Assembly (NCBI GenBank): GCA_030158485.1
Contig: JAOASS010000022.1
Span: 1 to 64,000 of the forward strand
Direction: 5' to 3'
DNA from: Pseudobdellovibrionaceae bacterium
Lineage (GTDB): Bacteria; Bdellovibrionota; Bdellovibrionia; Bdellovibrionales; Bdellovibrionaceae
Length of the DNA stretch: 64,000 nt
The position numbers and the translations under genes are program-made. The notes beneath the pieces are model-generated. The model was given only the letters and a program-made list of their open reading frames with translations, did no database searches and was not told the DNA's origin. Below, one piece after another: positions 36,055 through 38,193 of the stretch (the first letter of the stretch is position 1; each line of letters starts with the position of its first letter).

Positions 36055-36768
36055 ATGGGAAAATTATATTGGGCGATTGTTATTGTTGTTTTAGTATCGG
36101 GTTTGACGGCTGCAATTTATTTTGGCCTTCAGGGCAAAAGTGTTCCTTTGATCAGGTGGTCTCACTTTGCAAACTCGCAAGAAGTGTCCGAAGCTATTCA
36201 AACTCGAATGAGTCAGGAACTAAAGCCCTACCAAATTTACTTTATTGGTCCTCATCCAAGAAAACCTTTACATGTTGAAGTGGCTGTCAATTTGGCCCAG
36301 TGGTTAGCGCAGCAAAGTCCCAGCATCATCATAGTCGATACAATTATGTCTGAACAAAATCCAGCGATCGGTTCTTTAAAGCCGGATTTAATTCTTGATT
36401 TGGGACAAGAGAAAGAACGTTTTCTTCAAGGTTTGAAAGAATTAGGCCAAGATAAAAAAGTGATCGTAATTGCGCCTAATATTTACGTGTCGCACTTTTC
36501 ACCTCAGGCCCCAGTTTCTCAAATGAGGGATCAGTTAAAAAACTTCGTTGTGATGAGCTTCGTCAACTTCCCCAGATCTCGAGAAGAAGAAAAAGATTTT
36601 GAGTTTCCCTGTAGAACGTCTGAAAGTTCCGCATCTCAATTAGATTGGGGTTGTTTTATTTTGGGCCAATCAAGAAAATTTTACGTTAAAAAAGAAGTGA
36701 GCGGAAAAGTTCCAGGATTTTTGAATCTTGTTCGCACGGGCGAGTATATGCTTTTCCTTGGCAGATAA
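36055..36768 (+). CDS. Membrane-anchored protein of unknown function (237 aa)
   Basis: An N-terminal helix (about 4-24) leads into an alpha/beta-looking periplasmic domain with alternating hydrophobic strands (SPSIIIVDTIM, PDLILDLG, DKKVIVIAPNIYV) reminiscent of a Rossmann or TIR-like layout. I cannot assign a family. No ribosome site is evident before the ATG. Divergent from the pantothenate operon. Confidence 0.65.
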   Translation: MGKLYWAIVIVVLVSGLTAAIYFGLQGKSVPLIRWSHFANSQEVSEAIQTRMSQELKPYQIYFIGPHPRKPLHVEVAVNLAQWLAQQSPSIIIVDTIMSEQNPAIGSLKPDLILDLGQEKERFLQGLKELGQDKKVIVIAPNIYVSHFSPQAPVSQMRDQLKNFVVMSFVNFPRSREEEKDFEFPCRTSESSASQLDWGCFILGQSRKFYVKKEVSGKVPGFLNLVRTGEYMLFLGR

Positions 36769-36955
36769 AAGAAGCCATCGGTTTTTTGCGCCGCAGTATA
36801 TAATTGCAAAACTGTTAAGAAAGATTTGATCAGTAGACTTGTTCTCTTCCTTGGGGCATTTCAAAACTAAGATCAAGCAAACAATAACAGTTTATACGCA
36901 CTTAAAAGGTACGTATTTCAAAGAGGCTTTCAAAAGCCCGATTCTGGAGGCCATT

Positions 36956-37525
36956 ATGAATTTTGTATCTGCCATTATTTCGTTGTTCGTTTCCATTCAA
37001 GTTTTTGCGGGTATCGGTGAAGACTTCCGTGATTTAAAGAACTCGGCAGTAGATTACCAAGTTGTGGGCGCTGTTTGTGAAGAAGTCGCACGCTTACGTT
37101 TTCAAGAGGAATTTCCAAACAATAAGTATGCTGTGGTAACGGGAGTTGAATATGGTGATGGCAATCGTACAATTGGTGAGCTTGACGTGGTTGTGTTCGA
37201 AAATACGACTCAAAAAGTAGTTCGTGTTGCTGAAGTTAAATGTTGGAAAAATACGCAAGGAGCACTGAAGAAAGCTCGTGATCAAAGACAACGCTTTATT
37301 AGTACGTTACAATCAGGAAAACAAACTTACTTCAAATCTTTGCACTCTGATTACAAATTTAAAAAAGATAATTTTATGGGCACTAAAGAATTTATTGCAG
37401 TTGCTCAAAAAGGATCAAAGTCTTCAGGTTTTGATCGTGAATTGCCTTACGAATTAGACGAACTCATGAAGCTTCGTCAAATGATGATCGAATGCCAACA
37501 AAGTCGCGAGTGCGCTCGTCCGTAA
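36956..37525 (+). CDS. Exported protein with PD-(D/E)XK nuclease-like motif
   Basis: 189 aa with a clear signal peptide (1-19, cleavage near FAG). The mature chain follows the PD-(D/E)XK core order: a helix with Glu42/Glu43 (CEEVARLRF), a strand, then GELDVVVF with Asp77, VRVAEVKCW with Glu93-x-Lys95, and a helix with KKARDQRQRF containing the Gln often seen after the motif. This is the metal-binding pattern of restriction-endonuclease-like nucleases. Function as a secreted DNase is inference. TGGAGG lies 5 nt before the ATG, fixing the start. Confidence 0.72.
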   Translation: MNFVSAIISLFVSIQVFAGIGEDFRDLKNSAVDYQVVGAVCEEVARLRFQEEFPNNKYAVVTGVEYGDGNRTIGELDVVVFENTTQKVVRVAEVKCWKNTQGALKKARDQRQRFISTLQSGKQTYFKSLHSDYKFKKDNFMGTKEFIAVAQKGSKSSGFDRELPYELDELMKLRQMMIECQQSRECARP

Positions 37526-37531
37526 AAAATA

Positions 37532-38059
37532 TCATTGAAAATCTTTTGGCTGACAGTTGGGCAGATCTCTAATGTTAATCAGAGTTTGCCCTAAAGTTCC
37601 TGACTGTACAGTTTTGGCGATCTCATTGCTTTGACCAATCGTGTGCAGTCTTATTGTAAACTTATGTTTTTTCTTAATCGTAGACTTAACTCCTGTTAAC
37701 GTGAGGTAAAGAGTATCTTGGCCATTTCGATTTAATTTAGTAAAATCACGGTCAGTGTAAAACTCGATTACTTTATGGCCTAATGAATCGGCCTGTGAAA
37801 TTTGCTCCATTTTCAGGGAAAAAGTCATGATGGGTCTGTAGCCTTTAATGCTTAAAGAGTTAAAAAGCTCAGCGGTGGTATCTTTTCCTAAAACTGGATC
37901 CAAATTTGGCGTAAAAAGAGCGCAATCCAGCACACCAATTTTAGCTTTATTCCAGTAGATAACATCTGCAGTTTTTTTTTGTTGAACAAAATTCTTTGCC
38001 TGAGCACTGAGTGCGTAGATAAGGCTGCATAATAGGCAGTATAAGATCCACTCTTTCAC
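37532..38059 (-). CDS. Exported protein of unknown function (175 aa)
   Basis: Signal peptide (1-20, ending SAQA-K) and a beta-rich mature domain with two Cys (LDCALF and LPNCQP, the latter near the C-terminus), which could bridge the two ends. No family recognised. A GTG start is chosen because AGAGG lies 5 nt upstream. Convergent with the PD-(D/E)XK-like gene, 6 bp between stops. Confidence 0.68.
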   Translation of the reverse strand: MKEWILYCLLCSLIYALSAQAKNFVQQKKTADVIYWNKAKIGVLDCALFTPNLDPVLGKDTTAELFNSLSIKGYRPIMTFSLKMEQISQADSLGHKVIEFYTDRDFTKLNRNGQDTLYLTLTGVKSTIKKKHKFTIRLHTIGQSNEIAKTVQSGTLGQTLINIRDLPNCQPKDFQ

Positions 38060-38193
38060 AATCACCTCTTTGAAGCTGTGGTAAGACCACCAGATTCTTT
38101 GCAAGGAGATAGCCAAGAAGTGATTCAAATTGAGACGCCGTAGTCGACAATAAGAGATCTGACCTCTTGGTGTCTCAAAATGGACAGAAATTG

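Follow-up and report, generated by a model that had tools for sequence, protein, structure and literature searches.

A candidate Sec-exported PD-(D/E)XK nuclease family of the Bdellovibrionota in canonical and circularly permuted forms

Described systems and the new locus

Enzymes of the PD-(D/E)XK superfamily are usually intracellular. HamA, for instance, works in the cytoplasm together with a helicase partner, and the UPF0102 (YraN) proteins (PF02021), which are predicted to belong to the superfamily, are cytoplasmic as far as known, unlike the protein described here with its predicted export. In our search of the literature on exported families of this fold, we came across modular toxins only. 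PoNe, which is delivered by type VI secretion, is one such PD-(D/E)XK nuclease that acts outside the producing cell (PMC6688995); effectors of this kind are modular and have specialised delivery and immunity proteins.

The secreted nucleases of Bdellovibrio are of a different make. B. bacteriovorus has 20 annotated nucleases, and the exported endonucleases among them are of the Endonuclease I or the SNase type (PMC3593177). They include Bd0934, Bd1244 and Bd3507 of the former type and Bd1431 and Bd1934 of the latter, all exported with a Sec signal (PMC3593177, PMC7925074). Deleting bd1244 and bd1934 together left the degradation of prey DNA intact (PMC3593177, PMC7925074). Nuclease activity also persisted after the deletion of bd0934 and bd3507, and the authors of that study allow for an unidentified extracellular nuclease (PMC7925074). 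Predation was intact in both of the published double deletions (PMC3593177, PMC7925074).

The gene considered here lies in a stretch of 64,000 nucleotides (the window) from a Pseudobdellovibrionaceae bacterium, a member of the same lineage. Its product resembles PoNe in its putative PD-(D/E)XK nuclease domain and predicted action outside the producing cell, but it consists of a single domain and appears to be exported by Sec. It would likely do the same job as the Endonuclease I and SNase enzymes of Bdellovibrio, but their folds and active sites are unrelated to its own, and none of the five enzymes named above belongs to its family. The features of the gene are collected in Table 1; its reading frame was taken from the ORF list together with the homologues.

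Table 1. Coordinates of the candidate nuclease gene and its features in the window
Feature	Positions	Strand	Basis
Ribosome-binding site GGAGG	36946..36950	+	Five bases upstream of ATG, sequence read directly
Exported PD-(D/E)XK nuclease-like gene (predicted), ATG start, 189 aa plus stop	36956..37525	+	ORF, homologues, fold
Sec signal peptide, residues 1-18, predicted cut between VFA and G	36956..37009	+	Family-wide N-terminal signals
C41 (likely partner of C96) and E42 (putative catalytic Glu of helix A)	37076..37081	+	Conservation
G74-E75-L76-D77, strand 2, with putative metal-binding Asp77	37175..37186	+	D77 in 82/82; model strand 72-82
E93-V94-K95, strand 3, plus C96	37232..37243	+	E93 and K95 in 82/82; model strand 88-95
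Helix B motif K106...Q110-R111-x-R113-F114	37271..37297	+	Q110 in 82/82, R113 in 81/82; model helix 100-119
Strand-helix module, residues 140-182 (F140...G153-x4-G158-F-x-x-E162...)	37373..37501	+	N-terminal in the permuted clade
C180-x5-C186, likely second disulfide	37493..37513	+	68/68 of the close clade; both gone in L194

The gene stands alone. Upstream of it is an ORF of 237 aa (36055-36768, +), and downstream an ORF of 198 aa on the opposite strand (37532-38128, -) is followed by a 5'-nucleotidase gene; panB and the gene of a DUF2520 protein are further neighbours in the window. The 237- and 198-aa proteins are fast-evolving, have no Pfam match and are common only to the same genus, and the gene order around the window copy is likewise conserved only within that genus. 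Upstream of the nuclease-like gene, no promoter-like site scored higher than expected by chance.

Export signal, fold and active site

The protein begins with MNFVSAIISLFVSIQVFA, followed by G, a typical Sec signal peptide with the cut after VFA, and its sequence contains neither a lipobox cysteine nor a second membrane segment. Under a crude rule, 81 of the 82 family members have a signal-peptide-like N-terminus, compared with 14 of 50 control ORFs, which were long ORFs of the window itself; with a stricter form of the rule, 78 members passed and the window protein fell just short. Export signals are thus present in nearly all members, including those of a distant clade discussed below. The signal peptide that the initial annotation had placed ahead of the nuclease motifs is borne out by these comparisons, and together with the signal peptidase I site it supports the prediction that the protein is exported by Sec.

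An AlphaFold2 model built from 68 sequences is of high confidence (pLDDT 92.5, pTM 0.86) and consists of a helix (39-52), three strands (58-67, 72-82 and 88-95), a second helix (100-119), a further strand (145-150) and a last helix (167-182). It contains the alpha-beta-beta-beta-alpha-beta core whose absence had been named beforehand as a reason to give up the assignment. In the model D77 sits midway along strand 2, strand 3 ends with E93 and K95, and a turn (83-87) joins the two strands; given these strand limits, residues 77 and 93 are expected to meet across a tight hairpin.

Comparison of the model with known structures points to one superfamily. The top Foldseek matches are NucC, HamA and BstEII, and the leading fold matches in the PDB include these three proteins (HamA being that of Hachiman) as well as Card1 and Can2; upon structural realignment PD-(D/E)XK proteins ranked first, with a best Z of 7.8 over 99 residues. 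Matches with Z below 8 prove little singly, so what gives them weight is that the leading rows converge on the same superfamily, together with the motif.

Sequence searches with the window protein returned nothing above the cut-off in Pfam, NCBIfam, the PDB sequences or PADLOC. The sole return of the PDB sequence-profile search, to TatB, was rejected as a chance match, and PADLOC gave a weak PD_DExK match. The only Pfam match of the window protein is to NERD (PF08378), at 14.3 bits against a cut-off of 22.1, and the Endonuclease I and SNase domains (PF04231, PF00565) were not found by Pfam. Across the 68 members used for the model, the best sub-threshold Pfam matches are to DUF6602 (PF20247; 29 members), HamA (PF08878; 11 members), which is also among the fold matches, and NERD (10 members), with others to HSDR_N_2 and UPF0102; the sub-threshold matches thus fall mainly within the PD-(D/E)XK superfamily, to which these five families belong. 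The match to UPF0102 stays below its cut-off: it is seen in two of the 68 members, with a best E of 0.0018, and not in the window protein. A profile alignment of the two families scored 36.2, compared with 12.0 +/- 2.1 and a maximum of 18.7 for 100 column shuffles, and the GE-D and E-K of both line up. UPF0102 proteins have the same GE(I/L)D...E(V)K spacing and a preceding helix with a Glu; the host genome has a separate UPF0102 gene of its own on contig C20.

The residues expected of the active site are the most constant part of the family. G38, E42, Y66, G74, E75, D77, E93, K95 and Q110 are invariant in all 82 members, of which 68 form a close clade and 14 a distant one; position 76, within the invariant block, is either L or I, and R113 is kept in 81 members. 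GE(L/V)D and ExK are also retained in every one of 24 more loci from other families of the phylum, all distinct and with the core intact. One additional locus (L210, G268:C9:59500-63000) has a broken copy of the gene, split across two reading frames. Every residue named in the initial annotation stands at its stated position. The invariance agrees with the earlier assignment of D77 and E93-x-K95 and with a Q/R-rich helix in the right order after them, and it narrows the proposed E42/E43 to E42, since E43 is not invariant. These patterns support the presence of a complete PD-(D/E)XK active site in the window protein, for which catalysis is predicted. Conservation, the confident model and the fold matches together support its placement in the superfamily, as the fold is accompanied by the conserved Asp and the (D/E)-x-K. 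The family appears to be previously unrecognised: it passes no Pfam or NCBIfam cut-off, and it is not among the 20 listed nucleases of strain HD100.

Cysteine pairs and the permuted clade

All 68 members of the close clade have C41, C96, C180 and C186, and in 58 of them these make up exactly the four cysteines of the mature part. In the distant clade, C41 is replaced by Leu and C96 by Leu, Ile or Val in 14 of 14 members, and 12 of the 14 carry two other cysteines and no more, each at a fixed place. In one locus (L194), C180 and C186 were lost together with the C-terminus, and C41 and C96 were kept. Because the cysteines of each pair are present or lost together, two separate disulfides, C41-C96 and C180-C186, are likely, and they would fit an oxidising compartment; DsbA-like genes were found in the host genome. 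It is worth adding that the exchange at positions 41 and 96 happened just once on the tree and is therefore suggestive only.

Alignment of the two clades is confined to the core, from about residue 30 to about residue 120. In the model of the distant clade (pLDDT 87.6), a strand (51-56) and a helix (73-83) precede helix A, and helix B is followed by neither; in the close clade the corresponding strand (145-150) and helix (167-182) come after helix B. Both strand-helix modules have the pattern G-x4-G-F-x-x-E in common, and in both the helix begins equally far from the end of the strand. When the profile of the close C-terminus was compared with that of the distant N-terminus, the two matched with a probability of 95.1% and a score of 42.4, whereas 200 shuffles gave 10.4 +/- 2.3 with a maximum of 17.3. 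Comparisons in the non-permuted order found no match, with scores of about 12, and the two cores matched each other at 99.5%. From the position of the module in the models and the match of C-terminal to N-terminal profile, we infer that the two clades are circular permutants of each other, both with signal peptides and with the same predicted active site. When the permuted model was submitted to a fold search, the best Z was 4.0, which is expected if the order of the elements changed and is no proof of it.

Circular permutations are known in the PD-(D/E)XK superfamily, and we found no published description of the present canonical and permuted pair. Among 291 genomes of the phylum, with full-length and core-only matches taken as the basis of the tally, the canonical form occurs in about 36 and the permuted form in 25, and two genomes, G240 and G248, carry both. 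The permuted form is probably the derived one, since the canonical order matches that of other PD-(D/E)XK proteins. Examples of it are L068-L081 (e.g., L070:2706-3422, -), as well as L198 and L203. At about ten loci in several families, bolA follows within a few bases after the permuted gene (L068:2233-3306).

Distribution and proposed function

Relatives of the window protein were found in 50 of 148 near-relative genomes and in 60 of the 291 genomes of the phylum; the nearest named relative, from Bdellovibrionales bacterium Ga0074139, is 63% identical. When GTDB contigs were scanned with a single conserved stretch, all records returned were from Bdellovibrio, Bdellovibrionales, Oligoflexia, Bacteriovoracales and Halobacteriovoraceae; such a scan reaches mainly the close clade and does not prove the absence of distant members from other phyla. 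As far as seen, then, the family appears confined to Bdellovibrionota. Genomes that carry it in the genus that includes B. bacteriovorus (g6) have one to four copies, and B. bacteriovorus HD100, recognised among other things by the published bd1244 primer site, has three members (G036 C1 1214197-1214766, 1489173-1489730 and 2070045-2070614). The family is absent from several apparently complete genomes of the same taxonomic family, so the lifestyle does not depend on it.

Apart from the window copy, the paralogue groups each keep a stable neighbourhood. One paralogue group of Bdellovibrio immediately precedes mutL, with both genes on one strand, at about 20 loci, and in this group (L057:2659-3234; L041, L046, L048 and others) the nuclease gene itself comes after a gene whose product weakly matches SH3. 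Neither these mutL, SH3 and bolA neighbourhoods nor that of the window copy are informative for function.

Neither the host genome (G000, 98.3% complete) nor that of its genus mate G001 has a match to Endonuclease I, SNase or Endonuclease_NS. This is unusual for the lineage: among 64 relatives, 44 have Endonuclease I, 29 SNase and 23 Endonuclease_NS. Two other genomes (G005 and G017) are without all three nuclease families and yet also without the PD-(D/E)XK family, which therefore is not a strict replacement for the classical secreted nucleases.

We consider it probable, at roughly 0.7, that the window protein is a metal-dependent exported nuclease that degrades prey or environmental nucleic acid. 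The preprotein would be exported by Sec and cut by signal peptidase after Ala18, and the mature PD-(D/E)XK domain would be stabilised by the two proposed disulfides. By analogy with the superfamily, D77 and E93 would coordinate Mg2+ or a comparable ion, E42 would supply one more acidic ligand, K95 would activate the attacking water, and Q110 and R113 of helix B would contact the phosphate backbone. Nucleic acid, most likely DNA, would thus be hydrolysed outside the cytoplasm, presumably for the salvage of nutrients from prey or dead cells. Such a nutritional role is likely given that the genome has no match to the three classical secreted-nuclease families and given the activity left over in the Bdellovibrio mutants. 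The digestion of foreign DNA by an exported nuclease, as the initial annotation had envisaged, fits the lineage, and activity, destination and predatory role are put forward here as predictions.

Sec export would also suffice for an enzyme that stays in the periplasm of its own cell and cuts incoming DNA there, as a barrier to phages and plasmids or in DNA uptake. The superfamily is rich in defence nucleases, and NucC, HamA, Card1 and Can2 among the nearest folds, as well as the weak PADLOC match, are in keeping with this idea. We regard it as unlikely, since no defence or competence genes adjoin the window copy and no relative was found in the phage, plasmid and viral-contig collections. The latter result leaves a phage origin unsupported, and it indicates a family that does not travel with mobile elements, unlike many defence genes.

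Less probable still is an antibacterial effector that is delivered into prey and destroys the chromosome as the killing step. There are prey-invading bacteria in the lineage, and PD-(D/E)XK domains are delivered as DNase effectors elsewhere (PoNe, PMC6688995), but a simple Sec signal on a single domain with no delivery or sorting domain argues against it, and so does the result that no conserved immunity-like or delivery gene was found beside the family loci. The least probable reading, that of an exported phosphodiesterase with a different substrate, or of a structural protein in which the fold was kept, could appeal to the sequence similarity to characterised nucleases, which in every case stays below library cut-offs. 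Against it, all residues of the metal-binding and lysine set stay unchanged on both sides of a deep divergence, circular permutation included, and a structural role would not call for this.

To return to the exported nuclease, the three members in HD100 would be candidates for the digestion of prey DNA that remains in the published mutants. A broader proposal, of a disulfide-stabilised, Sec-exported family in two circularly permuted forms within one phylum, duplicated in prey-invading Bdellovibrio and digesting prey DNA where classical nucleases are lacking, is offered tentatively, and we would not yet bet on it as a whole. The family in any case constitutes an unlisted set of candidates, three of its genes being in HD100, for the residual DNase work of Bdellovibrio. 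If the prediction is true, the PD-(D/E)XK fold would be extended to plain Sec-exported enzymes, and the canonical and permuted pair would offer a natural case for how circular permutation arises in an enzyme.
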